Of a stretch of 64,000 nucleotides of DNA, positions 1-46,500 are shown piece by piece. The number at the start of each line of letters is the position of its first letter. Position 1 is the first letter of the stretch. The notes below the pieces were generated by a model. The model made no database searches and had not been told where the DNA came from. It saw nothing but the letters and a program-made list of their open reading frames with translations. This stretch comes from Tubiluchus corallicola. Taxonomy: Eukaryota > Priapulida > Priapulimorpha > Priapulimorphida > Tubiluchidae. The DNA is taken from the NCBI GenBank assembly GCA_030141605.1, contig JAQGDQ010000032.1, positions 231,501-295,500 of the forward strand. The letters run 5' to 3'. The translations under genes were made by a program, and so were the position numbers.

Positions 1-229
1 AATCATTGATCCTACCACCCGAAGTATGCTAGAAACCTGTTGCTCTAGCCGATCAGATGTGTGTTGAGATGTGTCACATTACTGCGCCTAAAGCCAATCA
101 CCAGCAACTTGGAAGTAGTGCCCATCTCCATGGTGACAGGCCAGCAGAGGCTCGTTGCTAGGTGTTACTAAGGATAGATGTTTTTAGATATGTGACATAA
201 GTTAACTAAGTTTAGCCTCAGAACTGGGG

Positions 230-501
230 TATATAAGAACCAGCATTATCAGCTGGAAAACAGTCAGTTTGTAGATTCAAGTGCTTTTGATATAGACTGC
301 ACAAGGCGCTTCTCTACCCTCTTGGACTTATTGTGGATGTTCATCAGTGTACTTTATACTCAGTATACTACACGATCACATATGCTAAACAAGACCGTGT
401 TTTATACATACTTCGTCAAGTTAAGAAGACAACCTCAAGACGCGTTCCGAGTTACGACACTTCCTTATTACTCATATTTTAGCGACATTACATAGCTTGA
501 A
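230..501 (+). promoter_or_regulatory. Candidate TATA promoter and 5' exon, or LTR-like segment
   Basis: A TATATAAG box (230-237) is followed about 30 bases later by an initiator-like TCAGTT (264-269). The sequence then runs to a strong donor, GTAAGT, at 502. The only ATG reading frame of note (338-494, about 52 codons) has no recognisable product. An AATAAA lies near 540. This could be the first non-coding exon of the plus-strand neuropeptide gene. TATA, initiator and AATAAA within about 300 bases also fit the U3-R-U5 layout of a solo LTR. The second terminus and target duplication needed to decide are not visible. Confidence 0.3.
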
Positions 502-810
502 GTAAGTTTATCACAAATTATTTAAATAAACTACACAATAAAAATATTTTTATTTTATTATTTGTTGCAAACCAAATTAGCACATATTTCACAACCGTAT
601 TAGCACACATTAGAACACAACCGTAGTGAAAAAAGAGATTTTTGGCAAATGTTATCTTAGCTTGAAGGTCCTCTAAGCTTCAGGGTCTCTAGGCTGCAAC
701 CTTACATTAGCTTGTATAAGATAATCCGTCCCTGCCTAGAGCATCAAGTCGAGTTTTGTTTTTTCTACAAGATCATTTTGCATAAAAACATACGTGTATT
801 TGCGAAAGAT

Positions 811-999
811 AGTGAAAACTTGCCTTTTTACAAAAAAAAATATATAAACAAAGCAGAATAACTTGATAGAGGTTAGTGACAACTTGCTTTTTTAGAAAAA
901 ATTGTGTAAACAAAGCAGAATAACTTGATAGAGGTTAGTGACAACTTGCCTTTTTACAAAAAATTATCTAAACAAAGCAGAATAACTTGATAGAGGTTG
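811..999. repeat. Tandem repeat, three copies of about 63 bp
   Basis: Three consecutive copies begin near 811, 875 and 937. Each contains AACTTGC, a T/A-rich run, then AACAAAGCAGAATAACTTG and GATAGAGGTT. Differences are mainly in the A-tract length and a few substitutions. Confidence 0.85.
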
Positions 1000-1889
1000 C
1001 CCATTAGCATAACCGGACTCACATTCGTGTGCTCAAAATAGTCGTTTAGTTTTCATTCGGGATGTATGCACGTTGTTAAGTGTAATTAATTTTTGGCCCA
1101 AACGTGACTGGTCCATGGTCCATAATAATTTGATTTCCAGGTGGGCAGCCTTGGCTCTTAGGTTCATGTAATGCACACGAAGAAGCTTAACGCAGGTCGT
1201 CATTTTACTCTAAAACGACCATATTCTTCATAAATCTTATGCGCTGGGAGTTTTCCACGGGATAAAAAAGAGACTATATGTCAATTATTTATTAGCTTTA
1301 TATTAATAATAATGCTCTTTCAGGGTTCATGCACTAACTCTGGGGCTTTGCTTGTGTGCATAAATCCTTTGCGTTATCCATACAGAGTTTTTCTTGGCTT
1401 CATCTGATATTATAAGTAGGTCACAAACCAGCTAGATCTTACTAATCCATTTGTCCTAATGGTTGGATGCACCGCCAATGGCATTTTGTTACAGCCATAC
1501 CGGCACGTTGCCGTTAATGCTGAGACAACAATTTGGCCAGTATCGTTAGTGAATGCGCATGCGCAAAAGGATACCACATAAAACTACACTAGCAAGACAA
1601 CAATAACAAGTTATCAGCTCTCACCACTCCTTACGTCAAACATCTGTATTTTTATGAGATGTGGCCATAAATTGTAAAGCGTAACAAAGAAGTTAATTCT
1701 CGGCTTACATATGCAAGCTAGAAATATTAGTGTAATCAAATTCCCATGGCTGTAGTGTATTTGTAGATCATACGCTAAGTACCTCTAAAAGCGTGAGAGA
1801 TGATCTAATGCATAATTTACATGCATTTTGCGGTAAATTTTTATCAAGGTTGCCTTTACGGACGTCCAGTTATGTATGATCATTGTGAG

Positions 1890-2098
<209 letters not shown>

Positions 2099-3527
2099 TC
2101 CTACTACTGCCGTTACTGTAATCACTACCACCTTCTCTGCATCTAGTAATTTTATTATTTATGACTGCTGCGACTGTTGTTCCTATCTCCTATGTACCGG
2201 TAACCAACAGTAAAACCAAAACGCCAGTGTTTATAAGGTACCAATGGTGAGAACTAGTCAACTGTAGGCCTATATGCAAGTGCAGTCAATTTGCTAATAC
2301 TATTTTTATTGATCTTGGGCACATGCACAGAGCGGAAGACGGCATAACGGTGTTTCAATGTAGCGCTAATAACCTTGATTAATTAATTCACAATCACATC
2401 TCACACCTGATCAGATTAGGTGTGATGCACAAGGTAGATCCTACAGCCATTCAAAGTCTTGGTTTACCCGGAGTAATAATGCACCTGTTTTTTTTTCGAT
2501 GAAACCGGTGATAAAATGCCAAAAAATTATTTTGTTTTGTCACGCTATGTAGTCAGTTAATTACTTCCTTTGAGCTACTTGACTGATATTGCTGGATTAC
2601 TTTTTTTGCAACGAGTTTCACGAGACAAGACCAGAACTGATGCTCTGCAACTGAAACAATTTTATGACATTCCTAAACTATGAATTCTATGAATTTCCTT
2701 GCACATCTGGTTGAGTTCCTTGACAAGAGAGACTAAAAGCAATAATGCGGCCTAATTTATAAATGTAATTGCAGGAGTTCCTAGTATAGTTGTCTCATTG
2801 TTTAAAACTGGTACTGCAAGGTTTGACCTTACCACTTGCAAAAATTATTTTACCACTGTGGTTATTTGCTTTATACCAAATGGCTTGCCGCAATTCAAAG
2901 AAATGCCTCCTCATGCAAAATGAAGGAGCCACAGTGACTGACGAAACTAGCTTAGGTCAGTATCAGTACCATTGCGACGCGGCTCGCCCAAGAGAGTTTT
3001 CTCTTCCCAAGTAAATTCGCCAAGTAACTCGCAAGTGTATTCAGACTAGATAATCTAATCCGACAGTAAGCGCGAGCTGACACTTACTCTATTTACTCTA
3101 CTTATTCTCTGTTTACTCAGAGAGTAACTCGCCGAGGTGTTCATACTAGACATGAAGTTGCACGAAATCAACTCGTAAGAACTGTCGGATAGTTCGCAAT
3201 AACTTGCTAACTGTAACTGGCAAAACAATTCACACTTGTGCGAGTTTCCTGTCAGAGAGAAAACTCACGACAGAAAACTCGCTATTCTGAACGCGTAGTT
3301 AGGATTGCGGCCCGTGTGTTCTTTATTGCACAAGAGCAAACGTCAACTATGTAGTTGCTTCTAAGATGAGATGCGATATGAGATGTCTGAACGTAACGTG
3401 CAATCGTTGCTGGAAAGTTCCTGTCACCGAGAAAAGATAATTTTCATTTAAACCACATGATAATTATTTGACGTACCTGTTCAAAAGAATGTAGTAAACT
3501 AAAACATGAACGAGTGCATAAATGAAT

Positions 3528-3722
<195 letters not shown>

Positions 3723-4050
3723 TGAGTGAGTCAATGAATGAATGATGTGAAACGACTAAATAAATAAAAAATGACAAAAATTTCAAACAAAGAAGGTGAT
3801 CATTTAAAAGTTTGACTAACAGCTTACGAGAAAAACACAACAATAAGTATTTTAGCAAGTAAATACTAGTAAATTTCGTAGCGGTCCTATTGTTATAGAG
3901 AATTCTGTAACATAAGTGCAAAAATTTAAAAATGCGATCAGTAGAAAAAAATTGATGATAGAAAATCCAATGTGCGATAAAGAAACTTATATTACACGAT
4001 GGCCCAAATACGATGCTTGAAAACCCATTTCGTTTTATTTTATTTTTCAG

Positions 4051-4086
4051 GGTCATGTGCAAGCTTTGGACAGTCTTGTCTGGGAG
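4051..4086 (+). CDS. Neuropeptide microexon (36 nt)
   Basis: The acceptor TTTTATTTTTCAG ends at 4050 and the donor GTATGT starts at 4087. In the chosen frame it holds two bases of a codon, then S-C-A-S-F-G-Q-S-C-L-G and one further base. The whole disulfide ring of the peptide is in this exon. Confidence 0.7.
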
Positions 4087-6584
4087 GTATGTATTAAAAT
4101 TTTTCAAATGTTACCCGAATTATTTTGCTAGCTGCCGAATGAACTTTTTTCAAAGTGGCAGTTAAAACTCACTATTGGTTAAACATAAATATGTATAAAA
4201 CGAAATTACATAAACCTTCTTTATTATGCTAAACCTTCTTTATTATGACTAAACTCTGTCCTCAAGCCTTTTTGCATACAGTACAATTACTCCTCAACTG
4301 ATGAGTTATGTACGTTATATCACAAAATTGGTTAAAATGATTATTTGGCGCGCACAAGGAATCAACAATAGGAAAAACAATATATATGTGTATATACTGC
4401 TTCTGTTTGTTGTCAGTTTTGTTGACGAAGTCTTCACTTTCACAGTATCAATCCGGAAAAAGATGATCTACGCGGTGACCGGTAATAAAATCGTAGGAAA
4501 AAAGTAATAGAAAAAAATCACAATTCTGGCTAGGAAAAAAGTCACAGGAAAAAAGTCTTGATTAATTTACGATGGCCGGAAAATAGTCACTATTTTGGCT
4601 AGGAGAGAAAGTCAGGTAATCAAACAAAAATATTCAAGTCAATCACAATTTACTTAAGTACCATAAACTATTAAAGTAATAAAACTGAAAATATTTTAAC
4701 TGGCAATACATACATGTACATATTGACAACATTATTTATATATATGATCGCATTACACGTATGTGAAAAAATCACGTTTTGTTCAATATCTTATGGTTAA
4801 ACTTAGGGTTAGGGTTTTTTACCTGTGACTTTTTTAAGTGTGGCTTTATTAAATGGATTCGGTGTACGCACAACTGGCGCAAATAGGCTGCGCTGACTAA
4901 TTAAATGTAATTTTGCCAGGACTTGGCGAACAATATTCTTAACTTTTCAGCCTTATAAAAATTTTAAAAGCGAACGTAAGCGGATGTCTCTGAATTCGGT
5001 TATTTCTGTTTTTTGGCTATTTGGTTATATATATATTATCTAATTGCTTTTGTAGAATGCGTATAGAGGTCCTTGGGGGTATGCAAATTCTTTTAACTAA
5101 ACATTGGAACTGTATTATTTACAAACATTTAAACCTGTTTAGTTATAGACTGTGGTTATATATGGATATATATGTATACATTATCATATTGATCTTGATT
5201 GCATTTCAGCAATTCTGTAGTTAATCGTAGCAGTGACGCATTGCACTTCACTTCTTAAAAGTCACTTTACTGCATCCAAAATGTTTATTATTAACGTTAT
5301 AAATTTATTTCGGGCGCGTAAAATTTCAGTGATCATTGAATAAATTACCTGAATTTGCATAAAAATTACAAGAAAATCTAGATGCTATTCTTATATGCCT
5401 TTTTCGTTTGTTACTTTGCCTAACTTCTTTAAAAGCTGCGAAATCAATTTTTTCTATTCAGCTACCGTAGTTATCAAATGGCCTACATTACATGATTGAT
5501 AATCAATAACGCGTTTCTGACAAAGTAAACTTGCGTGATTTTATCCAAAAACGACGATGTCTTATGCGATCGAGTAGTTCAGCTAAACAAATTTTGTCTT
5601 GCCTACTGAGCGCTAACTAATAAATTTCTCATCGCCTCATCACCGTCATTATCGTCACAGATATTTTCATTAATTAGCAAATGTTGTAGAAGTAAAAACA
5701 TGAGAAGTATGCATGGATGGGGGACTGTGCCATTGTACGGCAGCACAATGTGCAGTATGTGTGGCGATTTGTTAAAAGTAAGGCAACGCATTGTTAAGCT
5801 AAGCCAGCACGGGCAGTTCTCATATGTTCACACATTTTGGACTTTCGATCAATCGATCTATCGCACTCGTCTAACCACTACAAAATTGCGCAATCTGATC
5901 GCACATTTCGGGTGAATGTCTGCCTATTTGCGTGGTTGTATTTGTTGATTTTAATTTAACGAAAAAAATCGCTTATCCCGCGCATTTCGCAGCCATCGAC
6001 GCTTGACATATCCAATATGGTCCCGCTGCCGCATATTCTAAACCCGAATAAAAACGTTTGTAATTTGGTAAAATTCCGTGTGCTGGCTAACGCTCATTTT
6101 TAACAATTACTTCCATTTTAAATATCGCCACTGCTCGTGCTCTATTATATTTTATTGTACGTATGTTTTGTGTTTCCTTATTTCATTTGTATATATTAAT
6201 GAAAAAATCAAAATAAAGTATCCAGTCAAATCAACAACTGAATGCAATTAATTCGGTTACAATCTGGAAAGTAACCTGTGACCAACATTACACAAGGACA
6301 ACCATCAATTTCTCTTCTTTGTAGGATTCGGAAAAAGAGCCTACGATGATGTTGAGAGTTTACAACCGTATACGAACGACGAAGACGACGAGGAACTGTC
6401 GGATTATAGACGTTCTTTACAGCAAGACAGAGAGAGGCAATTTAATGAATTACTCAACAGGCTTTACCTTCAATGGAAAGGACGAAGACAGCAGGAAGAA
6501 GATAGTGAGTTGCCGTCACTTGAGTCATTACAGCGCAGACCAATCTTTATGAAGAATAGCAAAAAGAGCTTGGTGAGCTTGTAG
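4051..6584 (+). CDS. CCHamide-like amidated neuropeptide precursor, 3' part of gene (exons 4051-4086 and 6325-6584)
   Basis: Splicing these exons gives SCASFGQSCLGGFGKR, followed by an acidic and Arg-rich tail that ends at TAG 6582-6584 (97 residues visible). The two Cys would form a six-residue disulfide ring (C-ASFGQS-C). GKR is an amidation glycine plus dibasic convertase site, predicting a secreted cyclic peptide ending in Phe-amide. Spacing equals arthropod CCHamides (xC-x2-[YF]-G-x-[SV]-C-x-G-x-H-GKR), except that Phe replaces the terminal His and Gln replaces the His after Gly. CCHamides are ligands of bombesin-receptor-like GPCRs. The tail (EDDEELSDYRR, then LLNRLYLQWKGRR) contains further basic sites. 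The signal-peptide exon is missing: the microexon begins with the last two bases of a codon, so an upstream exon must end in phase 1. Another frame also stays open across the junction but yields no recognisable protein. Family assignment is inferred from motif and spacing only. Confidence 0.72.
4087..6324. other. Intron of the neuropeptide gene
   Basis: AT-rich intron containing a small fold-back repeat (4490-4850) and A/T-rich low-complexity tracts around 5020-5190. No additional coding exon was recognised. Confidence 0.6.
4490..4850. repeat. Small fold-back element with GGAAAAAAGTCAC-type arms
   Basis: AAAAAAGTCACAGG at 4535-4548 is matched by its exact reverse complement CCTGTGACTTTTTT at 4822-4835. 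The left arm also contains degenerate copies of a GGCTAGGAAAAAAGTCAC-like unit between 4490 and 4620. A TTAGGGTTAGGG stretch sits just inside the right arm (about 4803-4815). Confidence 0.5.
6325..6584 (+). CDS. Neuropeptide precursor exon with amidation/cleavage site and C-terminal propeptide
   Basis: The acceptor TTTCTCTTCTTTGTAG ends at 6324. The exon completes the Gly codon and continues FGKR-AYDD, an acidic stretch (NDEDDEE), RQFNELLNRLYLQW, KGRR, and ends KNSKKSLVSL before TAG 6582-6584. Two donor-like sites lie inside (GTGAGT near 6503, GTGAGC at 6573), so alternative 3' splicing is possible. An AATAAA at 6879-6884 could serve as the poly(A) signal. Confidence 0.7.
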
Positions 6585-6878: not shown

Positions 6879-6884
6879 AATAAA
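6879..6884 (+). promoter_or_regulatory. Candidate poly(A) signal AATAAA of the neuropeptide gene
   Basis: AATAAA about 295 bases downstream of the TAG stop at 6582-6584. AATAAA is frequent in such AT-rich DNA, so the assignment is tentative. Confidence 0.35.
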
Positions 6885-13421: not shown

Positions 13422-14543
13422 CTAGTCACGAAAGAACATGTCTAGAATGTCTTTATAACGTTCCTTCGACTGGCCAGAAACTTCATGATATGTCTTACCC
13501 ACACTTTTCTTCTTTTCTTTCACATCCATTTTTCGATGCTGTTCACCATCCACCACGAAAGAAAGTTCGCCTGTAGATTCACAGCCACTTTCATTGAATA
13601 TAGCCATATTTCCTCTGTGGACTCTTGTTTTTTGATCACAGACATTTTCAACATGAGCATCACTACATAGTTCACTAATCTTCTTAATAAGTTGTTTCTC
13701 TTTTGCCAATAACTCTTTCTTAAGGGCTTGTTCCTCATCCCAAAGGTCATACAGGGTGTATCCAACACTTTTACTATCACCGCGTGCTAATGCACCTCTA
13801 GAGCGTGACAGCAGATGTTCATCTGTATTTTTGTTCTCCAAACACCGTTCTCTAAATTTGTAAAATCCAAGGTGTTCATTTTCCGTTTTCTGCATGCGAT
13901 GATTAACCATTGCTGTATTTATGATTGTTCTTGAGTCAGATTTAGGCAGGTTGGATGGTACTTTATTCCTTTGCTTCAAATGATGTTTTTCATTCATAAA
14001 ACTTTCTGCTCTGTTTAATGCCTGTTGTTCATTAATGAGTTTCATAACATCGTTCTCTTCGAACTGTGCTTCAGAATGTCGATCATCGACATTTTTACTA
14101 GACACCTTCCTGTTTAACATATTTGGTTGTCTGAGAGAGTACATTTGTTCAGGTGATTTATCAATTCTGTTTTCACTTTTTCTGAAGGAAAAATCACCAA
14201 ATTCATCACCACATTGTCGTGTAATTTCATCACTGACCTTTGAAGACTCTATGCCATATCCATTTCTATGAAAACAAGTTGACTGAAAATGCTCTGTTCC
14301 ATCCTCATTTGCCAAATGCGGGAAACTCTGACAATGGTTGATAGTGTCTTGCTGCATATTAAAGCGATCTTCACCTACAGACAATGGAGAATTGAAATAA
14401 TATTTTGCTCTATAATCATAGCACATGTCACCTACTGGTCGATCTCTCATCACATGTTTATCAGCAACCGGCAGTGGATCAAAATTACAGGTGAAATCCT
14501 GTGATAACTTTTGGGATGCTCCAGTGACGTCCGATTTGGTGCC
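13422..14543 (-). CDS. Hinderin-like gene, terminal exon
   Basis: Acceptor CTCTTTCCCATAG, then GTKSDVTGAS in phase 0 and 373 residues to TAG 13424-13422. Rich in Asn, Ser, Arg and Glu; a predicted helix (LYDLWDEEQALKKELLAKEK) lies near the end. Confidence 0.75.
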   Translation of the reverse strand, partial: GTKSDVTGASQKLSQDFTCNFDPLPVADKHVMRDRPVGDMCYDYRAKYYFNSPLSVGEDRFNMQQDTINHCQSFPHLANEDGTEHFQSTCFHRNGYGIESSKVSDEITRQCGDEFGDFSFRKSENRIDKSPEQMYSLRQPNMLNRKVSSKNVDDRHSEAQFEENDVMKLINEQQALNRAESFMNEKHHLKQRNKVPSNLPKSDSRTIINTAMVNHRMQKTENEHLGFYKFRERCLENKNTDEHLLSRSRGALARGDSKSVGYTLYDLWDEEQALKKELLAKEKQLIKKISELCSDAHVENVCDQKTRVHRGNMAIFNESGCESTGELSFVVDGEQHRKMDVKEKKKSVGKTYHEVSGQSKERYKDILDMFFRD

Positions 14544-17500: not shown

Positions 17501-20500
17501 AAGCTACAGACATGCATTTTGAAAGTCTTAGCCAAGATAAAGATGAAAAAAACAGTGAAGTACAGTTTGATAATTCTTTTCCTTTTTATTAACCAACAGA
17601 AATCAATCTCACATATAAAAAAATTCTCAGCGAATGTTCAGCTTGTGATTTCATTAGCAAACTTGATATCGCCGCATAACGTAACATAGTCAAAGTTGTA
17701 GTCGAGTACAAGCTACGCCTTTAGAATTATTTGTATGAATTTGTCCAGTTATTAAACACTTTGGGCTAGACTAGAACATTTTTGTGTTTTGGGGTTATAA
17801 TTCCAAATGTTTATATCAAGAACGAAATAACACAAAATCAACTAAAATAAACAGATGGGCTAGAAGGATTGGAGAGATGGAGGAAAGATTGGCAGACTCC
17901 ATTTTAGTTGTTACCCCTACTGCAGGACAACAATCCTGTTGAGTTAACTTTAGAAAATTTACGTAGAACCGTGACTTTGTACTACATCTAGCATATGCTC
18001 ATCTTCAAATCATAAAACTAACAATGCATGTCAAACAAAAATAAGTTACTCGAAGCCATAATGTATTTCATTTATGCTATATTTTAATACGAGTGACAAT
18101 CATACATTCTAAAATCATTTCAATGGGCCAGCAACAAGCATTTCAATGGGCCAGCAACAAGCAAGGTAAGTTGAATCAGTTGGAGTTAGATGGCCATGCC
18201 ATAGCAGCCACATGTATGACATCAGCTGAATTAAAAAATGCAGTTAGTTGACCAGAGTTGATCATGTGTCAACAGCACTTTAGTAATACTATAGTATAAA
18301 TACAAGTAAAAATGTTCCTAAACTAAAACTAGAAATGAAATATTTATTAAGTTGCAAAAAGATACAGATCAAGAAACAAACCTGTTTTGATGCTAAAAGA
18401 CCTGAAAATGACTTCAGTAATCCATCCTGCTGCTTGACAACTTCCTTCTGGCCTTCTTCCAGCAATCTTTGACACTCCTGATATTGTTTCTGAAGACTTG
18501 TCAAATGTCAAGGAAATATACGTACTGCTAGATATTAGCTGCTGCACATTTAAACAAAACTCTATAGTATACAAACATGAACATCCACTCAACTTGAAAG
18601 TGCACAATATTTTATTTATACCTATACGCTAAAAACGACACAATGCATATTTTACAAAATTACATGTGAAAGGTTGTTAAGAAAATAATAGCATTAACAT
18701 GCAAAAGTGAAGCATTGATTTATTTATTTATCACCTACAGTCAAAATAGAATTGAATGGAGTCTAGTTCATTATTTGTTAATTGTGAATTTCTATGTGAT
18801 ATCAGAATACAAAGATGCAGAAAACTGAAAAAATGTGTGGAGTATCCCATCATTAATTTATAAACAAATGATTTTAGAACCCTGTGGGAAATGTCTACAA
18901 GTACAAAGCAACCACAACTTAATTTAACTACACCTGAATCTACAAACACTGTCATCTGAAACGAAAAAAGTATGTGCAACAGTGTAAACTTACCGTACAA
19001 CCATATAATTTTTTTGTCTCTAAACAAAGTTTTAAATTACAGGGCCCTGCAATACTGTACAGCAACGCTGATTCTTGATTTAGAAATTAATTAGCAGGAA
19101 TGACTTCCATTCCTGTCACTGCAAATCTGTGACCTTCTCCATCCTCTTTCACTTCTGACCTTACACAATAGGTATTAGCAACTTAAGTAAATGCTGTAAT
19201 ATAGACAGCAAACTATCATAAACAAACAAATAATAATTGTCAAACCATAACAGATAACCAAAGCAATCAGTTACCATATTGGTGATTTTTAGTTTGCTTG
19301 CTTAACAACTACTAATTAAATCTAGTAATACTTTTAAGAAACAAATAGTCGACAAAGTTTTATTTCCTCAAGATAAAAGCTCTTAAAAAGCTAAATTAAA
19401 AATGACAAATTTAACGGTAAGGATATTGGCTCGCTCAGTTTTCATCTGCTCTTGTTGTTTTTCCAGTTCGGCAAAACTTTCTCGAAGTTTCTCCTTTTCC
19501 TGTTGGATGAGCAAGAAATCATCATGCTGTCTCGTATTTGCAGCTTTAAGTTTTTGTGTGAGAACATCATTGGTTTCACTTAACCTGCACATGTTCAGTA
19601 GAAAAATATCTGGTTATAGTCAAATAAACACCTTTCTGCAAAATCTACTCACAAAAACAAAAACTACCAACTTACATGTATAATTAAGCCCTTGAATATG
19701 TTTATGTCGAGTGACGGGGTAGACAATCAAACATATCATAAACTATATATGTACAGTAGTTTAGGTACAGAGGTACAACATAGAATGTATGCAATAAATG
19801 GCAGCTGGTCTATTGATTTTTATTTTGCTTAATACAATACACGTAAAAATTTCAGTACAACATTGCAGTGCAATATTAGATAATCCAGGCATTGCCATAA
19901 TCAGACTCCGAAGTGCAGCAGAAGGGTGTCATCTTTTAAACAGATTTGTAGATGCATTAGGCTACGCAGGCGATATAAGTTTGAAAAAGGCGTTAAATCT
20001 TTGTGTTGAATTTGCGAATAAGAACGACATGTTGTTTAACATATCAAAATCCAAATGTATCATGTTTAGACATTTCACTGAATGTAGATTACCTCGGATA
20101 TCAATTAACGGTGTAATTTTAAACTGGCTTAACAAAGTATCTCATTTAGGTCACCGACTTACATACAATCTGTCTCAGTCTCATGAAGTAGTAAGGTGCA
20201 TGCACGATTTCATTAAAGCTTTGAATTCATTACTGTGTTTTTTCAAATCTGTGAGTAACAAACGTGTATTGCTTGTATTGTTCAATGCTTATTGCTGTGC
20301 ATTCTATGGCAGTTCAATATTTATCTTAATTGACAGAAGTGTAAAATTGATGATTGTTGAATATCGAAGAGCACTGTGTCGTATATGCAGCATACCATAT
20401 AACTCGCATTCTACAATGACGATAAAGATTGCTGAAACTTCCTCCTTGAATGTTTAATAGCTAAGAGAACGCTTAAACTGTTGTCACGTGTAAATCGGCC

Positions 20501-29312: not shown

Positions 29313-32300
29313 GTAAGTGGAATTCATCGCTGTACCAGAACTGGAAATTTATTCGACTGTCCTTCACTTTCTACAGTTTCTCTTTTTAGGTTAGCAAATT
29401 AACTTGCCCTCTCGTGTGTTTAACGGCGCGCAAACAAACTCAATGTCGCGCTTTCAAAATGATATTGGGAAATCATAGAGGAACGCGTAGCGTTGAAAAT
29501 GGCGTATAGAAGTGGGGAATCAGTTCAGCGGAGAGATAAACTATGTAACTCAATAGGTTTTCAGCCTCATCGATCAATGTAATGAATAATGCTATTATAT
29601 TATTATAATTTTGAAAACCGTGCAACATGCAGAGCTCTGAAAGAAAAGTGGTACTTCAAATTAAACGTAAATAGGTAACTGAATAAAAACGAAAAGGCCA
29701 TCTCAAAATAATGAAATTACAAGAATACAGAAATTTTGGTGTCCCATTACTCCCTCACCAAATATGCAGTTACTACAACTTACTTTAAATTTATTTTTAT
29801 TATAAATTTGAATTTATTTGCAAATATTTATTAGCATCAAACATTTAGTAAGAACTCACAGTGTCAACCTGAAATTTATCCTGCTTACAATACAGTAGTT
29901 AAAACACACATTTGTTATGCACCCATTGGTATTGCTAAAACATGTATTTATCTTCTACAATTATGCATGTCATGGTTTCTGCTAAAAAATTTCACAGTAA
30001 ACTATGTGTAAAATGCTAATGAAAGTATAGTCCTAAGGAACATTACTATAACTGCAATGCTCCTCAGCATTGATCAGACTTCACCAACATGGCCATATAC
30101 AGTGATAGTGATAATGTCTGTTTGTTTTTGTTACATAATGACATACTGTCATAGTGAAATAGTGAAATAGGGAGCAGCAACAGTGAACGGCAACTTTAAT
30201 TATTACATAATGATTTAGAGCAAGTTCATGTGAAAATTTGCCTCGAAGTGTTTTGCTTATATATTCTATGCCTGAACAATGTGAATAACTTTGATTTACT
30301 ACTATGTAAATATTTAACAAAATTGGCAATTGTGATTACGATTTGCTGACAGATCAAACCGTAACAGATAATAATATTAATAGTAATAATTAATAGAATA
30401 ATGAGATGTCTAATTTTAATCTTTTAGGCCATTTCCAGCAGTTTCCACGCATGGAAGGATGTATCAGTGCGATTTCTTAGGAAAGTTTTTTACGCCAGAA
30501 CATTTCTATGGATTGCATTGTTGGTTACCTTCTGCACTTTATCTTATTTTCTGACAGTATCTGATAAAATCTACCCAAACAAGGCTGCGAGAAACCTCAT
30601 AGCAATAGGTAATTTCTAATATATCATAAATTTAAACAGAAGCCACATGCCATCAAAACATAAAAGACCTAAAATGTACTTATGTGGTGGGTGTGAATAT
30701 AATAAGTAAATACTCAGCTAACTCTGCTTCCCATCCCAAATAGACCAATAATATTTTTGTGTTAAACTATTAAGCCTGTGTAAACATTAGGCGAGAATGG
30801 TTGGAACTTTCAATATTTATTTCGAACGAGTTTTTTTAATTCGAATTCAATTCAAACCTAAAATTACAGGTAGGAATAATTTAACACTTCAATTATATAT
30901 GTCCTTTATAATTAAATATTTGAAACATCATGCATTTAGCACAATTTAGCTGTGATTTCTGTTCACAATTTTTAAGCTGTGCAGAACAAAGCCAAGTAAT
31001 ATTCCTGATCTTTATGAGACAACTTTTTATCAGTGATTAGAATATCTTTAAAAGTGAATTTGAATTCGAAAATGCTGAAATTTGGTTTGATTCGAGTTTG
31101 AAGATCACAAACACGATTCAATTCGATTCAAATTCATGTTTTTGTGGAGAATGCTCACCTCTAATGATCTTAATGGCAGATACTATCTTCCAAGAATATT
31201 GGAATTTGGAGAACTTTTTACGTTAAGTCGTTAACATTAAATTTTCTACATAAAAATTGTGTGGCTCTTACACGTATATGCACAACCTTCAAAAACAAAA
31301 TATGCTTAATGTAGCTACAAAATAATGGTGCAATTTTATTTTGCAGATTCAACAAATATACGTGAATCGCCTGTATCAGATGTCTCTAAATTTTCACAGC
31401 TAGAAAACGAAACGATAAATTTGAACGATGAAACATCAGAAAGGCAAAGTTTTACCAACCCAGTTATGATAAGCAATGAGGATGCAACTGTGTCACCAAA
31501 TGAACCTGACAGTGAGCCACGAATAAAACATGCAAATGAGAACAAGAATATTAAGAAAATGAAGTGGAAAACATTGCAGAAACAAGCGAATGATTTCTCT
31601 ACAGCTTTAAAGGAGATTAAAGATAGAAGAGAAGAACTTACAGATGTTGACAGAAAGTCTCAAGAAGAGCATAAGATGAGAAGCTCTTACAAAAAATTAG
31701 ACCGAACACATAATCAAAAAGTTAGACAAAGTTTACCTGTTAAGAATAATAACAATGTGCAGCGAAGCTCACAAAAAATGGAACAGGGTCCGAATTATAT
31801 GTTACCACAGGGTCCTGCTAAACGAGTGCTACAGACTTCTTATAATAATCACTACAATCCACACCAACTGATAAATACTGGAAAAGCTGCCCAAGATGAG
31901 ACTTTACCAAAATTTTCGCAGTCTGCTTATCCAAAAGTAATATATGAAGACAGCTCATCTTCTCTGGGAAAGAAAAGAGTGTATTACATCAATGCAGCAC
32001 CAGCTATAACGACAGTGCCAACGTACATAAAAATGAGGCATCCGAACTCACAAATACCTGAAGGAGAAATGACTGCTGACATTAGAAACGAGCGTAGAGA
32101 ACAAATTACACCAACTCCGAGCAGTACTTTGGCAGAGGAAGACACAACAGGCACATCTACTAGTGGGCCAAAACAGACTGTAAATATTGAAATGGAAAAT
32201 GTACATGATGAACCATCCCATGACAGCAGAAGAGATTACAGTGTGATAGATGAATACTATGTCCCAGAATTTCCCCAGTCTAATAATGTGTATCATGGAA

Positions 32301-33397
32301 ATTATGTCCAAATGTATACACAAAGAGATCACCAATACATAAATGAAGCCTATTCAAACAACAGAATGCCTAATCCATCAAGATTTGTCTCAGTACCTCA
32401 ACAAGGGCATGTGATTGCAAAACAGTCGAAAAAGAAAGTGGTGATTATTTCCACACGATACAGATCGGGTTCTACTTTCACTGGAGAAATGTTTAATCAA
32501 AATCCAAACTATTTTTTCACATTTGAGCCATTGCATTCTTTCAAAAGAAAAGTCCTAGACTTCGCATCACTAAGTGAAGTAGAAAAGGGCATCAGACGCA
32601 GAGCTCTACTGGAAAGTATTTTCCTCTGCAATCACAACAGTGACTATCGCCCAGCTCCCAACTTTTTATCAATGACAAAAGCCATATCTAAATTCACAGG
32701 CTGTCCAATACCAGAGACTCTGGGTAAAAAACTTGAACCAAAATGCTCAGCAAAAGCAAAAGCGGTCATAGCCCAACCATGGTTGGTTCCTGAGCTATGC
32801 TCAAAATATAAATACAGTGCTGTGAAAACCATAAGAGCAAACATAAGTGACTTAGTGCCACTACTGGATCACGATCAGCTGGATGTGAAAATTATACAGT
32901 TAATCAGAGACCCACGTGGCATGTTTCGCTCATGGTTCCCAAAACTGAATAACAACGATGAACAGGCATTTATGAAACTAAAACGAAATGTATCCAGCAT
33001 TTGTAATGAATTGCTGATGAACCTTTATGATGGTGAAAGGTTACGCAAATATAAACCTGATCAGTATCTGCTACTTCGGTATGAAGATTTGGCTGCTAAC
33101 CCTATTGATGTCGTGAAAGCTATGTACTCTTTTTCAGGAACTGAGTTGCATAATAATGTACTCAGATGGATTTACTTTAATACGGGGCAGTCAGAACGAG
33201 CGAATGCAGAAAAGGTGCAGAGACGTTTTGGAACATTCCGGACAGATTCCAAATCTACCGCAACGAAATGGAAAACTGCTCTGCCTTATAGTGCCATTAG
33301 AATCATTGAGGACAACTGCCGCGAGTTCATCCTAAGTGCTGGGTACAACTTATTTGACCCTTCGACTACTACTACCTCAGAGAATCTTGAGCAATAA
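29295..33397 (+). CDS. Golgi carbohydrate 6-O-sulfotransferase (CHST1/GlcNAc6ST-like), long stem
   Basis: Exons 30428-30608 and 31347-33397 join in phase 1 (743 residues). A candidate first exon at 29295-29312 (MNVLMG, donor GTAAGT, phase 0) has a stop directly upstream in frame. The membrane segment is FLWIALLVTFCTLSYFLTV in the second exon, giving type II Golgi topology. About 365 residues of polar Asn/Ser/Tyr-rich stem follow. The sulfotransferase domain starts with the 5'-phosphosulfate loop (IISTRYRSGSTFTGEMF, DNA about 32441-32491) and FEPLHSF; the 3'-phosphate motif is IQLIRDPRGMFRSW, followed by LRYEDLAANP. This order is that of the Gal/GlcNAc/GalNAc 6-O-sulfotransferases, which use PAPS to sulfate glycans in the Golgi lumen. 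Vertebrate members are about 400 residues, so the stem accounts for the extra length. The acceptor sugar cannot be told from sequence. Confidence 0.85.
30428..30608 (+). CDS. Sulfotransferase exon with the membrane anchor
   Basis: Acceptor TAATCTTTTAG, donor ATAG|GTAATT (phase 1). Encodes a basic cytosolic part (HAWKDVSVRFLRKVFYAR), the transmembrane helix and the start of the stem (SDKIYPNKAARNLIAI). No in-frame ATG is present, so an upstream exon is required. Confidence 0.8.
30788..31163. mobile_element. Older copy of the hAT-type MITE, in the sulfotransferase intron
   Basis: Colinear with 23728-24168: shared TTGAAACATCATGCA, AATTTAGCTGTGATTTCTG and CTGATCTTT blocks, TTCGAATT-rich ends, and the terminus ATGCTCACCTCTA (31151-31163). 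The left end is degraded (TAGGCGAGAAT) and no 8-bp target duplication survives. Confidence 0.8.
31347..33397 (+). CDS. Sulfotransferase main exon: stem and catalytic domain
   Basis: Acceptor ATTTTATTTTGCAG ends at 31346. The first two bases complete an Asp codon. Open for 682 residues to TAA 33395-33397. The stem includes a Lys/Gln-rich part, a Ser/Thr-rich part and a Tyr-rich acidic part (SVIDEYYVPEFPQSNNVYHG). Confidence 0.9.
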
Positions 33398-34608: not shown

Positions 34609-35511
34609 TCACATGGAAAGTAAAGTTTGCCTCCAAAGAAGCTTAATCTCCTTGGGATGTTTTGTCAAACCAAAGAGAAAATTGGGTTTCTTTTCATATT
34701 CGATAGTTTTTTTAATATTACTAGGTTGCCATTCCAGTCCACCATCAAATTTGTTTAACAGAATACCTAAACGTTGACGAAGCACTGCAGTGATAAAAAC
34801 ATCGTCTAGCTTAAAGAAATGTTCTGACGTAGATAGTCGTACCAAATCACGGCTGACATCGCGAGATACCATGTAAGCAGCACCACTGCAAAATGGAGGA
34901 TAAGTTCCATCTCGTCGCCACTCCTCTCTTGATACATAGTACTTGCTGGTCTCGTCTCGAATAACCTCATTTTTATGGAAAATATGTCCACAACAAATGA
35001 GATGCACAGATCCTTTACTTAAACCAAATCTTTCTTCAATTTCTAATGCAAGACTGAAAATGTTAATATAAACATCATCATCGACTTTCAGCACAAAATT
35101 GGCTGATGCACAAAACTCTTCTGCCCATTTTAAGCCAAACATGTTTTTATAAGTAAGGTTTTGGTATGAATCCAGGAAATTAGCTTGAATGATGTCATTG
35201 TGCTGCTCACTCTCAGCATTGATATCTTCCTGTTCAGTTGTGTTCATCGTCTGCCCCAGGACAAAAACTACCCTGTACAACAAAGTGGATTGATACTTCT
35301 TCCAGTTACCCCATGTTTTCCGAATAACATCTCGTGATTCAGCATGATTTGCCGCAGAGGAAACAGTTATTAAGAGATCAGGATTACCCTCACACATCTT
35401 GTGAGTGTTTGTTACAATTTTGTATGATTTGAGATCCACAAGACAGGAATCCTTGCAGAATGCTAAATTCTGGGCAAACGCTGCTAACACAAGGATATTT
35501 CGAAATAGCAT
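34609..35511 (-). CDS. Beta-1,3-galactosyltransferase-family enzyme (GT31)
   Basis: 300 residues in one coding exon. GT31 motifs in order: LLITVSSAANHAESRDVIRK and TWGNW (residues 47-70, the 'R-AIR-TWG' block), YRVVFVLG (79-86), DSYQNLTYKN (114-123), the metal-binding DxD as VDDDVY (143-148), YPPFCSGAAYMVS (204-216), and LDDVF (235-239) where the family usually has EDV. Such enzymes transfer Gal or GlcNAc from UDP-sugar in beta-1,3 linkage in the Golgi; the exact donor and acceptor cannot be told. The hydrophobic N-terminus is short (LFRNILVLAAFAQNLAF) and the catalytic domain follows almost at once, so the stem is minimal. The frame stays open for eight codons upstream of the ATG to an acceptor (TTTTTCTAG at about 35536), so a further 5' exon is certain and may be coding. 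Convergent with the sulfotransferase gene. Confidence 0.85.
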   Translation of the reverse strand: MLFRNILVLAAFAQNLAFCKDSCLVDLKSYKIVTNTHKMCEGNPDLLITVSSAANHAESRDVIRKTWGNWKKYQSTLLYRVVFVLGQTMNTTEQEDINAESEQHNDIIQANFLDSYQNLTYKNMFGLKWAEEFCASANFVLKVDDDVYINIFSLALEIEERFGLSKGSVHLICCGHIFHKNEVIRDETSKYYVSREEWRRDGTYPPFCSGAAYMVSRDVSRDLVRLSTSEHFFKLDDVFITAVLRQRLGILLNKFDGGLEWQPSNIKKTIEYEKKPNFLFGLTKHPKEIKLLWRQTLLSM

Positions 35512-38505: not shown

Positions 38506-38639
38506 AGTGGTTTTTTCATTTTTGTCTCAGATGATAATTAGTATATGTTATTAACTCGTGTTCGTTATATAGTCATTTGTTAAATTGTGTTTACTGCTCT
38601 TTATTGCTCATTGTCTTAATACTTGTTCACAATACGAAA

Positions 38640-39180
38640 AATACGTAAAGTGAAGAAACAGGAAATTGGAAGAAAAGGAAGGATGGAGAATGTGTGAGAG
38701 AGAAAAAAAGACAAGAGGTAAAGGGGAGAGAAAGAAATGAGATATGAAGGACAAGAAAAGAGAAGAGAATAGGAGAGCAGAGCAGAAGAGAGGAGAGGAG
38801 AGGAGAGGAGAGGAGAGGAGAGGAGAGGAGAGGAGAGGAGAGGAGAGGAGAGGAGAGGAGAGGAGAGGAGAAGAGAGCAGAGCAGAGCGGAGCAGAGGAA
38901 AGTAGAGAAGAAAAGAAAAGAAAAGAAAAGAAAAGAGAAAGAAAAGAGAAGAGAAGAGAAGAGAAGAGAAGAGAAGAGAAGAGAAGAAAGGGTAAGGGAG
39001 GGAAGGGAAGAGAAGAGAACAAAAGAAAAGAGAAGAGGAAAACGAGATGAGACGATGCGATACAAGCCGAGATAATGAGAGTAGATAAGAGAAGAGAAGT
39101 TCGGGAAGAAAAGAGAATCAGAAGAGAAAAAGAAGAGACAAGAAGAGAAGAGAGAGGAGAGAGAAAAGAAGAGTCGGTGC
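38640..39180. repeat. Purine-only GGAGA/GAAAA pentanucleotide tract
   Basis: About 540 bases of nearly pure purines on the plus strand. The core (about 38785-38870) is GGAGA repeats, followed by GAAAA (38908-38936) and GAGAA (38944-38985) blocks. Such polypurine DNA can form triplex structures. Leu/Ser/Phe-rich frames on the other strand are artefacts. Confidence 0.95.
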
Positions 39181-42100
39181 ACTTGAAAGGACAAATGTAC
39201 TTTATTTTTTATACATACTTTTAATATTGCGCAAAAGATGTAAGCATGAACAGCAGTTATGCAAACGAACTCTGTATATTTACTTTCTTGTTATTTTAGT
39301 TACACAGTAATAAAGAACACCTTTTCGCTGAAAGTTGTCCGATAAAAAAAGGTAAGACATAAGAGTACCTGTGAGGTATCTGTGAAATTGTAATCAAGGC
39401 TGTAATGTGACCAACGCTAGCTGAAAGTTTTCGTGGTGTGTTATTCATTGTTATTCAACGTGAAACAATTGTTTGGGGTATATTACGCGCTCGTGGTCTA
39501 TTTTAAATGCAAAACAGTTAGAGTAAAAATCATTAAATTTTGCTGAATTCTAAAAATCTGAATAATTACTTTACATTACTTAATTATCAAATCCACTAAG
39601 TTTTATCAGAATAATACAGTTCTTCGTAGGTGATGTCGTAGTCGGTGTAATGAGTTACTGTGTGTTACTCTATAACAACTTGTACTTCAAAGCAAGAATG
39701 AATTTTAAAAAAGTAAAGCGTATAAAGAGGATATATAGGCGCTGTCTTACGCGTTAATAGGTCGAATAGCAAAACAGGTTAATGCTATTTATGAAATTAG
39801 CAGACAAACACGTTGAATGTATTGACGAACCTCTCTATTTAATTGACCCGTCTTTATTGAGAGGACGTGACGAGCCTTGCTGTTACAGTGCGGCTCCGAG
39901 TCAACAAACGTGGCAAAGGAAATTTCATAAAGCTTAATCGAACTTCCATTATCCTTACGTCATTAGTTAATGGCGACACGTGCCATCGATGCGGTTAATT
40001 TATACAGCACATGCATGTGAGGACGCAATTAAATTACCATGATTGTGTCATAGCTGCGATCTTTTTATAGTTGGTAATTTAAGTGAACCTCAAGACCCCC
40101 CCCCCACGCCAGACGAAGACGGTTGTCGTTCGCTTTAATTGTGCTTTTGTGGAAGAGCTGCCTCAGCAAATACAAAAGTTTTAAAATTCAGTGCACAAAA
40201 CAGGACACTGCGACTAGGTGAAGAAGCCTAATAGCAAATTATGTGTACAGTAACTAAAACTATATAATTAAAATCTTCCGTGCAAACCTTCTTTGTGACA
40301 CATCTGTTTATTTTAGCACATTACCTGGCGGCTGGCATACCACTTACGGAAATGCTGCAAGCGGTACTGCCAGTGAAGAAAATTACAATGGACCTACTTT
40401 TCGTCAAAATCAGCTGTACTGAATGGATATAGTTAAATTCTTTTTAATAGTTTAAGGAAATAGCTGTGTGCTTAATGATCGCACTTAAGGAACACTAGAC
40501 CGGGTTAGTAGATGGAGTCTAACTATAAACTGCTTTTCACTATTTTTCTCGCTGAGTAGAAAATGCACGTAGATTCAAACATAGATAAGATACTATTGCC
40601 GATTTAGAATCGCATCTTAGGCAGTTATCCTTGATACCGACCCTACAACAAGTATCAATATAATAAGATGATCCTATTCTGAGCTGCGGTTTTATAAGGC
40701 TGACCTGCAGTTTGCTGAATTGTACAGAAAATTGCTTGTTCGTTTTATTATTCTTGTAACATGTCTTTTTTACAAAGTTGTTATTTTGTCTAAAAAGAGC
40801 ATTTGTCTAATCGTTAATAATTAATCATACCTTAGTCATTTATCAGAAGCCATAATATAGCATACCATTTGTTACCCATGCAAGATGATTAAAACGCCGC
40901 AAGCACATGTCCCACGCGGCTTCAGCTGTTTGCGTTCTGAGTGAAATGATGCGCGTATTTTATAGCCAGCAATGAGCAACAAACAAAAACGTTCAGCAAC
41001 TCGGGCATTATCAGTGAACTGTAGCTTCAAAAGCACCTACAAAATGCTAGACATACCACCCACAAGTCTGAAATTTAACAACAAAACTGTAACTTAACAG
41101 CGTTTATTCCAAGGCGTTTTGGCAGCCAAAACTATAACAGTTGTTGAATACTGTAGAAAAAAAACAATTAGATGCAGTCAAATTAACAATACGTCACCGA
41201 AAGACCTATTTTTATTTTATTGTAAATTTTTGCTTGAAAAAGTAAGTTAATTTCCATTCATGACCTCACATACCTCAGACATAACCCATACGAAGCCAGG
41301 GGGACATTTTTTTTATCATACATAGGTCTTTCACTGATACTTTCAAATTTTACTGCTTCCATGGTGTTATTTTCTTTTTGTTTTCAGATAACTGCTGTAT
41401 TTTGTGAACGCCGAAACGATTCCGAACGGAATGAAAACTATAAGATTAAAGGCAACATGTTTAGTAGAAAAGTTAGCGCATCTAACACAAATTCATAGCG
41501 AAAGATATTGGGTGAGTACAATAAATAAATAAAAATTAAAGTAACTGGTGATTTTTGCAAACAGTTTCTACGTTACGTTGTACACTACTTCGATTAGTGT
41601 TAAAACTGGCACAGCTTAACCGAAGTAAAGTATTGATCTACATCTAGTTTATAATACCTTCAACTAATTAAAGACATCATAGTTGAACATGTAACATTAT
41701 CCAAACTAACCACATTAGCTTATAAGTTAAATTACTAAAAATCAGTTAGGAAATATAACGGTTGTTAGTTTGTTTGAGTTAGATCCATTTTTTGAAGAAA
41801 GATAAGATTTGTATTTGCACAAAAATTATCTCAAAGAAACGTTAATGGTTTTTTTTCACTCTTGCTGTAACAAATGAGGTAAATATTGGGGTGGGAGAGG
41901 GCTTCCGTTCAATTTGAAAAACGTATTATTAGTTAAATAACGTGTGTTCTTGTTGTAATGTTGTTCCTGATGTTCGCGCAATGTCAGTCGAAACCGCGTT
42001 AGATCTAATTATCCTGAAGCTGAAGTAAGATCTTTTTCGCAGATTGTTATTATTGATGCTAATTAATTTTGTCAAAATGTAACAAACTTTTGATTTTTTA

Positions 42101-42857
42101 ATACATGCATTCAATTTCGACAGAACGCCAAGTGCATGCGAAATTTTAAATAAAACTGTTCATTGGGACTGAGGCAAACGATAAAAGAAACGATGAATAA
42201 AAAATATTCGGACATGTTAGTGATATGTACTGTAGAGGCAAAGAAAGAATTTCAGAGAAAATCTGACAGGTTGTGAGAATCTGGGCCGTTTACATTTTTG
42301 CACTCGAAGTTTTCAAACGTGCTTCACGTTAAGAGGACCTATAATAGCTAAGCGTTTTATATTATATGGTTCGGCAAGTAGGCGTGTGTTTATATTCAAC
42401 ATAAACCGGCTAAATATTTATTAGTATGCGCTAGAAGTTACAGATTTTTAATCGCTGCGCCGATCATGCACGCGCGCGACGAGAGTGCACTGGTTTCAGT
42501 TGCTTATTGTGAAGCACTACTGTCTAGAGTGGCAGAATGTCTGAAAATGACGCGTGACAGTAAGTGAACAGCGTTTAAAATAAGAAAGTAAAAAGGATGC
42601 GTTTATTTGTGGAAGAAGCACCGACTGTCCATCGGTGATGTTTCTTCAACGTATTGAGTTCCTGTAGCAGCAAAAAGCAGCGATAAACCACATGAGAAGC
42701 CATAGAGATAACCATGGGAAATGCGTGTTCGACGCACGGATGCACATAAATTCCACAGACAATGGAACCTTTCAGAGATTAAAGAAATAAACCGAAACAT
42801 ACACTACCGTGTTTGTGCACAAGCGTGTGATGAAGTGACGCATTATTTGAAGCTCTG

Positions 42858-43561
42858 ATGGGTTTCGGTCAAGCAGACATGTCCAAGGTCAACCGGGTTC
42901 AGGCCGGAACAGTGTTTTTCATAATTTCCCTTATTGTTATCATTGGTGTGTTAATCGGTGTATTATTTGCACGAGGCAGACGCGAGCCGTCCGAAACTAA
43001 TGGAGAAACGACAGAAGCGGACGATTTTCTTACGAATTTTACGCTCATGACGCGCATGACGCAGATACCGCCCTTACCGCAGAGTCCGTTTTCGGAACTG
43101 GTGGACGTGGTCACACCTGCCGCTGCGGCGGTAACGCGTCGTCCGACTACAGCAAAACTCAAGCCGCCAAAAAAACCGGATCTTCATTTGCCGGGAAATC
43201 TGGAACCTAGGCACTATGATATTCGAGTTCAGCCATTTTTAGAAGATGGCAATTTTACATTCCATGGTGAAGTGACCATTACCATGACCGTCTTAAACAA
43301 ATTAAGAACCATTTCTTTACATTCTTATAAATTGACATTAGTCAGTGTTAAAGTATATTTAGACGAGGGTTATAAATTGAGAGAAATTCCAGTGAGTGAC
43401 GTAACACTAGACCTAGTAAGACAGTTCGTGCTTATTCTTCTCAGCGAAGATGTTTTTCCACGAAGCAATGTTGTTTTAAGCATTACTTACAGTGGCACAC
43501 TTACAACCGACCTTAGAGGCTTTCATATTGTATCATATCGGGATCCAAGAGGAAATAATAG
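42858..43561 (+). CDS. Aminopeptidase exon 1: cytosolic tail, membrane helix, stem, start of M1 domain
   Basis: Ends AATAG|GTAACA in phase 2. Contains the anchor, a Thr/Pro linker ([20 protein letters not shown]) and the first beta-sheet of the N-terminal domain ([28 protein letters not shown]). Confidence 0.9.
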
Positions 43562-46500
43562 GTAACATTCCTATTCGACAATAGGTAATAGGTAATGTCA
43601 CAGTAACATTCGTTACTCATGCAATACGTTATTGTTGTTGCTATTAGTTCTGCAACACGACATCATCATTGTTATTGGCCGCTTTATCCCCAACATCATC
43701 GTCGGCATCGACATCATCATCATCATCGTCACTGTCGTCGTCATCGTCACCGCCACCACCATCATCATCAATATCATCATCATCACGTACAAATAGAATA
43801 GGTCTGCCTACATGCACAACTTCCTGCATTTTATTTCAAAGAACTAAAACTTGATGACAATCGCTTTGGGTACTCAAAATAGAATGTATAAGAGCGTTTA
43901 AAACCGCGTGCACACCATGTTAAGAAAACAAACGCACATCATAAGACCACGTGGTAAGACGTTGACTAATGTCTAATGTCGACGGGTCACGGCTTAATAA
44001 ATGCTAGTAGATTACTGTAGATTATAAGCCAAGTTGAGCTTTTATTGCAATTGCGTCAGAGATACGAATATTCTTAAATGTGCTCATAGCCTCATACTGG
44101 CTTAGCATGTTTAAATCTGCCAGAATAATCCAGAATTCGAGTTTATTTTCAAAATTTATGTTAAATCTCTAAAGACCTGCACAGCTAGGTTATATAATAG
44201 TGGTAAGAATCCTTGCGATTTTTTGCATTTATCTGGCGTAGTAGATTTTCTGCAAGAAGACTGGAAATGTATTTTTCATAGTATTTATATACATATAGTC
44301 TTTGTTTACTGGTCCCTTTAAAACATTGCCTACAGTTCTTAGTTTTATTACGTTGTTTTCACTTAACACGCTCAGTTTCCCCACTGCATGTATTACCAGT
44401 TCTTGTTTTGTCAGTATGTATTCCACCAGTGATCATTTCACCAGTGAAATACTTCATTATAATATTATTAGATTTATATAAAGCCTTCAGTTTGTAATTT
44501 TGTTAGTATGTCAATTGCCATAGCACGTTTTGTCAGTGCTTGTTTCCCCAGTGCAGTACTCATTGCATACCCATTCCCCAGTGCATGCTCCCCACTTTCA
44601 CCAATATTCGTTTCGCCCCTCTAAGTTGCCAGTTAGGACACGTACCGCCTTGGGCAGCTACATTGCAGACCTCTGGTGGGTCGCAAAAACGGAAGCCGTA
44701 AAAAAGGCAGAAGACCTCAGGTGGGTCGCAACAGCGAAGGCCAGAAAGCCAGCGTGCTGCATCGTGCTTCATAGCTCGTGAAATCTCTTGTAGTTACCTA
44801 AATTGATTATTGGTAGACGTCCTGATTGTCTAAAACACCAAACCAAAGTAAATCACCCAAAAAGAGAATATAACGCTTTGAAGTGATAAAAAACCGAATG
44901 TAGCTTAATGAAATCAACTTAGGAAAATCTAGAGGTCTATCGGGCTTTCGATCTGTGGGCAGACAAAGCTTAAGAGGACGAACAGCAGGCACTGGTTCAT
45001 AGAGAAATATGACCGGATTGTCTCTCAGCCTCCAAGCAATGCGGTACAGTGCGCTAGATTCATTAGAAATTCAGGACAGTTTACGTCCCTGCCTTCATTA
45101 GTAATTTCTTTACAGTAAAAGCACAGTTTGAAAGTTACGTGAACCAATCAGACGCCATTTTTCACCAAAATGAGCGCGCCCAAGCGTGAAGTCATCGCAA
45201 TTTTAAATTGAAATTATTAATTACACGAGGCGCTTATCACAATTTCAATGCTGAAACTTCCTAACATTTTTCTCAAATATTAGAATAAGCTCAACTTCCC
45301 GAGAGACTTCGCTTTTACTTTAATACGTCCGTTATAAAGCTACTAGTATTGTTGACAAATGTTTCATTGGCAAAATGATCATTAGTGAAATGCATAATTG
45401 TCGGTGAATTACGGCTGGTGAAACTGACGACTGACAAACTGTGCACTGGCGAAAACGAGGAATAGCAAAACAAAAAACTAACAAAATTAGTGCTAGCGTA
45501 TGAAAAGTTATATTATGATAGTAGTTACGTTATGCGCACTAATGAAACGTACAACTGACAAAGTTATGACTGGCCAAATGTATAGCTGGCGAAGTATACA
45601 CTTGTGAAATGTACATCTCACAAAGTTGTCATTAATAATTGATGACCTTAAAATCAAAACTACAAATAATCAATTATTAAGCTCTTCTAATCACAAACTT
45701 ACCTCAGAATAAAACTTAAAAACCGATGAACTGCTAATGTTTAATATCAGGACTGAGCAGTGAGCAAAGTTTAATAATTTGAGTTTTCAACCTTTCTTTT
45801 GTAAACAGAAAGCGAGTGACGCTTCCAAAGTTAAACATCTTTGTCATTGCAGAGTTATAGCCACATCACAATTCCAGCCAGTTGATGCTAGAAAAGCGTT
45901 TCCATGTTTTGACGAGCCAAGTTACAAAGCCACGTTTAACGTCACGTTAGTACGTCCGCCTAACATGGTCACGTTGTCCAATATGGACATCTTGAGAAAA
46001 GAACCGACGTAAGTGTTGTAGTATCTTGTCCGTTCCTTGCGAAGACTGTGTCGTCAATTAATAAAAATATTTTATTACAATAGTATGAAAAATATCTACG
46101 CTATCTAAAATAATGTACTGATAAAAAATGAATATCTACAACTTGACGCTTTTCGAACTCGCCGAAATAAACCAATCACCATTCAAATAAGAATTAAATT
46201 TACATTTTCATAAAAATAATTTACATTTCGCATAAAATAGATTAGGTAACATTCATTGGGGTTTTTTTGTTGAAATTCACTGCCTTTACAGCAGTTAAGT
46301 TAATGCTTGTTTCTAGGAATGCGTTTTATACAGACTAAACAGATAAATTTGCGAAATTTTGATTAACACATCCCAAGTAGTAGCGATCTTGAACGTTTGT
46401 AGATTTAAGACACCACAAAACTTGCCTATAACCAACAGTGGAGTCTCCATTTAGTAAAACTGTATCTTTTTCTTCTATGACGTCCTAAGATGCTATCTTT

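Follow-up and report, generated by a model that had tools for sequence, protein, structure and literature searches.

The excitatory peptides (EPs) and CCHamides of protostomes are described in PMC6617912 as usually carrying two cysteines with an aromatic residue, and often also a His, between them and a Gly–Gly or Gly–Ala before the end, with amidation and a single copy per precursor likewise being usual. In the same account, the terminal His that gives the CCHamides their name is limited to Arthropoda and Onychophora, and species of priapulids, nematomorphs, and loriciferans are stated to have Met, Phe, or Leu at this place, the match of residue to phylum being given only in a figure; data from the priapulids Priapulus caudatus and Halicryptus spinulosus were included in that scan for EP precursors or receptors. 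In brittle stars, the CCHamide-like peptides are described as having no “penultimate histidine” (PMC5627052). Orthology between the EP/CCHamides and the bombesin-type peptides has been proposed, for which receptors are called the only true indication (PMC6617912), and the bombesin-type genes of chordates and echinoderms are described as having a phase-1 intron within the peptide as their first coding intron (PMC12002301).

Here we describe a locus in a contiguous stretch of 64,000 nucleotides from the priapulid Tubiluchus corallicola (the window), which, judged from its sequence, very probably encodes a precursor of the EP/CCHamide family with one copy of the peptide. We make this assignment because the rank of the locus in a profile scan, the identity of 5 to 7 of 13 residues with each of five published CCHamides, the position of a phase-1 intron within the peptide as in bombesin-type genes, the disulfide-type ring, the Gly–Gly, the GKR, the single copy, the phase of the splice sites, and the coding-like second exon all agree. 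Joining positions 4051 to 4086 to positions 6325 to 6584 of the plus strand across a phase-1 GT–AG intron yields SCASFGQSCLGGF-G-KR followed by an 81-residue tail. The translated join reads SCASFGQSCLGGFGKR, then these 81 further residues, and ends at a TAG stop codon at 6582 to 6584, such that the joined frame runs for 97 residues without a stop. The exon at 4051 to 4086 (GGTCATGTGCAAGCTTTGGACAGTCTTGTCTGGGAG) codes for SCASFGQSCLG and closes with the initial base of a Gly codon; its 5′ flank, TTTTTCAG, ends at 4050 and is a candidate 3′ splice site, and its 3′ flank is GTATGT, giving the donor junction GGAG/GTATGT (the slash marks the exon border). The intron (4087 to 6324, plus strand) is 2238 bases long and interrupts the peptide’s own codons, splitting that of Gly12, which precedes the terminal Phe, after its first base. 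The acceptor junction of the second exon is CTTCTTTGTAG/GA.

The first 14 bases of the second exon (6325 to 6338, plus strand) complete the Gly12 codon and, in the translated join, encode Phe13 (6327 to 6329), the amidation Gly, and the Lys–Arg cleavage site (GKR, 6330 to 6338). The propeptide tail that follows on the same strand (6339 to 6581) is Arg-rich and acidic, with 18 acidic and 13 basic residues among its 81, shows coding-like codon use, and holds four further dibasic pairs beyond the Lys–Arg after the peptide. The peptide is present once in the joined frame of this two-exon form, for which an AATAAA at 6879 to 6884 on the plus strand is a putative polyadenylation signal. A candidate splice donor, TTG/GTGAGC, is found on the same strand at 6573 to 6574, nine bases upstream of the stop codon and in phase 0 as counted by hand; if this donor is used, the C-terminus would continue in another exon. 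What the sequence shows directly is the two open exons, splice sites that agree in phase, the ring, and the signals for processing. A preliminary description of this DNA had proposed spliced exons giving a ring peptide and an acidic, Arg-rich propeptide, with which the splice signals, their matching phase, and the open frame agree.

The peptide itself has two cysteines with six residues between them, C-ASFGQS-C, as in the five arthropod CCHamides that we compared, and the aromatic residue of the ring is a Phe, with Phe-Gly preceding the second Cys. A Gly–Gly lies between the second Cys and the C-terminus (C-L-G-G-F), and the amidation Gly and the dibasic Lys–Arg directly follow Phe13. The ring, its spacing, the Gly–Gly, and the amidation and cleavage signals thus fit the CCHamide relative that the preliminary description had recognized. 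The His that is frequent between the cysteines in the family is a Gln here, which counts against membership. Identity with each of the five published arthropod CCHamides is 5 to 7 of 13 residues. These peptides (Drosophila CCHamide-1 and -2 and lobster CCHamides among them) and the one described here have in common a 13-residue core with C-x6-C, an aromatic-Gly, G-G or G-A, and an amide; the arthropod peptides, however, end in His and have a ring His, in contrast to the Phe and the Gln found here.

Rings of another size than C-x6-C led us to exclude vasopressin, CCAP (PFCNAFTGC), and elevenin. Endothelin was likewise rejected, as it has four cysteines (PMC6617912), whereas this peptide has two. 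The EP/CCHamides of priapulids, nematomorphs, and loriciferans resemble it in the two cysteines, the Gly–Gly or Gly–Ala, the amidation, the single copy, and the Met, Phe, or Leu end, a likeness drawn from PMC6617912, which gives the family traits as usual or almost general in the members it covers. The excitatory (GGNG) peptides of spiralians resemble it in the two cysteines, the Gly–Gly or Gly–Ala, the amide, and the plan of the precursor, but their terminal place is occupied by Asn in all spiralians investigated according to the same source, rather than by Phe.

A profile search for CCHamide precursors, as suggested in the preliminary description, was carried out with the first 11 columns of the five published arthropod CCHamides; the profile was built without the sequence under study and scanned over the six frames of the window. 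The locus ranks first with a score of 39.2, compared with 27.0 for the runner-up. In 300 Markov-shuffled windows, the best scores have a mean of 24.72, a standard deviation of 3.01, and a maximum of 37.40, such that none of the 300 reaches 39.2 and at least one comes near it. Using patterns defined post hoc, we find that each of the two splice halves is unique across both strands of the window, that they lie on the same strand in the same phase, and that the pair occurs in none of 60 shuffled windows; the ring pattern, also post hoc, has one match in the window versus 0.00 expected. A measure of codon use, for which three coding stretches elsewhere in the window served as training set and which was compared with 152 control open frames from which repeats and known or suspected genes were excluded, gives 0.239 bits per codon for the exon at 6325 to 6584, a value exceeded by 2 of the 152 controls. 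Since an incorrect frame of this exon scores 0.224, this test is weak at separating frames and is taken as supportive only.

Searches of databases with the 97-residue joined sequence returned no homologue in the protein collection, and no Pfam family was assigned to it or to the frame of the second exon. Five matches in the PDB have E values of 0.43 to 1.4, which is chance level, and the tRNA and Rfam searches gave nothing at this locus. With neither a homologue nor a Pfam family, the family assignment therefore rests on 13 residues and the processing signals. The missing homologue is also what one would expect of a degenerate or unexpressed copy or of a chance reading frame that is no working gene, a reading to which the lack of a clear signal-peptide exon in positions 1 to 4050 and the poor separation of the second exon’s frames by codon use also lend weight. 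It is nonetheless improbable, given two intact splice halves that agree in phase and occur nowhere else in the window, 97 joined residues free of stops, and a profile score beyond those of all 300 shuffled windows. Still less probable, in our estimation, is that the peptide belongs to another two-cysteine family with the same ring size, e.g., allatostatin C, and came to look like a CCHamide by convergence. The lobster peptides QIRYHQCYFNPISCF and SYWKQCAFNAVSCF-amide (PMC4696782) do share the C-x6-C spacing and a Phe end with the peptide described here; in these two examples, however, the terminal Phe directly adjoins the second Cys, whereas Leu-Gly-Gly-Phe follows it in the Tubiluchus peptide. 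Furthermore, the ring aromatic and the Gly–Gly fit the EP/CCHamides as described in PMC6617912, and the arthropod CCHamide profile, a CCHamide profile being the only kind used, places the locus above the best of the shuffled windows.

The 5′ end of the EP/CCHamide gene allows two models: translation begins either at the ATG at position 3999, with a leader that only weakly resembles a signal peptide, or in a further exon upstream. In the EP/CCHamide family, the peptide directly follows a signal peptide; here, it would follow this weak leader of 18 residues or the product of an upstream exon. The exon need not begin at 4051, as the preliminary description had it, since the frame of SCASF is open upstream to this ATG, with an in-frame TAA stop at 3978. 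An alternative first coding exon would accordingly span 3999 to 4086 on the plus strand and comprise the ATG, a putative 18-residue signal peptide, MAQIRCLKTHFVLFYFSG, and the stretch from SCASFGQSCLG to the split Gly codon. We give slightly less than an even chance to the reading in which translation starts at this ATG, MAQIRCLKTHFVLFYFSG is the signal peptide, and no intron border exists at 4050, a reading that is compatible with the EP/CCHamide assignment. The ATG has an A at −3 and a G at +4 in addition to the in-frame stop upstream, and the resulting precursor of 115 residues is close in length to a nemertean EP precursor of 116. On this reading, no coding intron would precede the phase-1 intron in the peptide, as in the bombesin-type genes of PMC12002301. 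We looked upstream for a signal-peptide exon ending in a phase-1 donor over positions 1 to 4050, beyond which the window does not extend. The first thresholds gave no such exon; looser ones gave seven ATG–donor combinations, all starting at either 2161 or 2499, of which a single one is in phase 1 and none is convincing, such that no good alternative exon emerged from this region.

Several features speak against a start at 3999. The hydrophobic core of the leader is short, with a best 8-residue hydropathy of 1.74, and the T-rich codons of a run resembling a splice site would appear hydrophobic regardless. With the cut placed after Gly18 of the leader, a Phe occupies position −3, which is unfavorable for signal-peptide cleavage. 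In addition, TTTTATTTTATTTTTCAG/G has the look of a very strong 3′ splice site. Of the 35 polypyrimidine–AG sites in the window, 3 have an ATG-led open frame of 14 to 30 codons in a fixed frame, and these three may include the site at 4050. Finally, the N-terminus of the Lineus longissimus EP is altered by apparent alternative splicing, and an exon border near the N-terminus of the peptide is favored for this reason.

As the peptide ends in Phe (6327 to 6329) and not in the C-terminal His-amide of the arthropod and onychophoran peptides, we do not file it as a CCHamide in the narrow sense. The preliminary description took a terminal His to be the rule for CCHamides and saw in the Phe-amide an undescribed kind of peptide. 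The former is true only of Arthropoda and Onychophora according to PMC6617912, and the latter gives way to the same source: because Met, Phe, or Leu ends have already been reported there for priapulids, nematomorphs, and loriciferans, the Phe end constitutes no undescribed kind. The “CCF-amide” is a new sequence at most and no new family. Neither the exact peptide nor the name CCFamide was found in the main texts of the literature searched. Within the EP/CCHamide family, a terminal Phe may be the sign of a scalidophoran branch with a co-evolved receptor.

By the processing that these signals predict, the precursor would enter the secretory pathway and lose its signal peptide, the two cysteines would close the ring, Lys–Arg would be cleaved, and Gly14 would be converted to the amide, leaving SCASFGQSCLGGF-NH2, for which we calculate an MH+ of 1260.514 with the ring closed. 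Neurons or endocrine cells of the gut would be expected to release the peptide, which would then act on the EP/CCHamide receptor of the species, a relative of the bombesin and endothelin receptors, and, by analogy with related peptides, may affect feeding, gut, or muscle. In Drosophila, the reported EC50 of CCHamide-2 at its receptor is 4.80 x 10^-11 M when amidated versus 1.13 x 10^-8 M without the amide, and CCHamide-1 without its amide still activates CG30106 at 1.66 x 10^-10 M; the stated conclusion of that work is that both ring and amide are required (PMC3533232). In a nemertean whose EPs have an additional C-terminal Gly, both EPs still activate the species’ own receptor (PMC6617912), with EC50 values of 59 and 78 nmol/l. 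Since nemertean EPs with a changed C-terminus activate their own receptor, co-evolution of the receptor appears as likely a consequence of the change from His to Phe as the strong effect on binding that the preliminary description expected.

Elsewhere in the window, Pfam matches are to a sulfotransferase, a galactosyltransferase, and an M1 aminopeptidase, and the identified relatives of the galactosyltransferase and sulfotransferase genes are animal proteins. The β-1,3-galactosyltransferase-like gene occupies one open frame on the minus strand (34612 to 35511), and its relatives include proteins of 89% and 51% identity; the best match of known species is a Priapulus caudatus protein with 51% over 70%, and the next is a Cordylochernes protein with 39%. 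A tree built from the window protein and 14 of its 19 matches (five were omitted) groups the window protein and the 89% relative with the Priapulus protein and one further protein, with a support of 88/87, which is below the 95/80 mark. This grouping suits the EP/CCHamide assignment, as priapulids are among the animals with reported Met, Phe, or Leu ends. The sulfotransferase (31325 to 33397, plus strand) is encoded in a single long open frame and has an extended N-terminal region; among the matches listed (120 of 145), its relatives have 91% and 89% identity and then ≈32% or less in mixed animals, and none is labeled priapulid. Taken by themselves, the two genes point with moderate confidence to a priapulid or another scalidophoran, and probably to a species other than P. 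caudatus, as neither has a nearly identical match of known species. An M1 aminopeptidase N-terminal domain (42834 to 43565) and an ERAP1-like C-terminal domain barely above the cut-off (59146 to 59475), both on the plus strand, possibly belong to one long multi-exon gene. A 373-residue open frame on the minus strand (13422 to 14543) has no Pfam match and coding-like codon use (0.163 bits per codon), and a 219-residue open frame on the plus strand (19798 to 20457), also without a Pfam match, looks by eye like a decayed reverse transcriptase. Long simple repeats at 1890 to 2090, 3541 to 3720, 38600 to 39290, and 53580 to 54240 give rise to spurious open frames; CTG/CTA and GT types were read in the sequence, and purine-rich and five-base AATAC-type repeats were deduced from translations.

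The intron of the EP/CCHamide gene lies in phase 1 inside the peptide codons (4087 to 6324), as does that of bombesin-type genes, the likeness being one of phase. Bombesin-type genes also have a phase-0 intron in the C-terminal region, for which the donor-like site at 6573, phase 0 by hand count, is a possible candidate here. The mammalian gastrin-releasing peptide gene is split about four codons from the end of the peptide and the gene described here in the codon before the last residue, so by simple counting the two positions are not identical. Furthermore, the bombesin-type peptides quoted in PMC12002301 have no cysteines, in contrast to the two found here. CCHamide genes of a beetle are drawn in a figure of PMC6585902. 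The phase-1 intron within the peptide, seen in this gene and in bombesin-type genes, is a possible new link between the EP/CCHamide and bombesin-type genes, and we tentatively raise the idea, itself rather doubtful at present, that an intron at this phase in the peptide is ancestral, held in common by descent from one original gene by the EP/CCHamide precursors of protostomes and the bombesin precursors of deuterostomes.

The locus probably adds an EP/CCHamide gene with its exon–intron structure from a poorly sampled lineage of ecdysozoans, and it is in line with the published account in which the His behind the name CCHamide is a trait of arthropods and onychophorans and no rule of the family. 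If the intron is ancestral, it would provide gene-structure evidence, independent of the receptors, for a common origin of the EP/CCHamide and bombesin precursors; its sharing by descent would thereby offer a simple gene-structure test for a homology so far said to rest on receptors.
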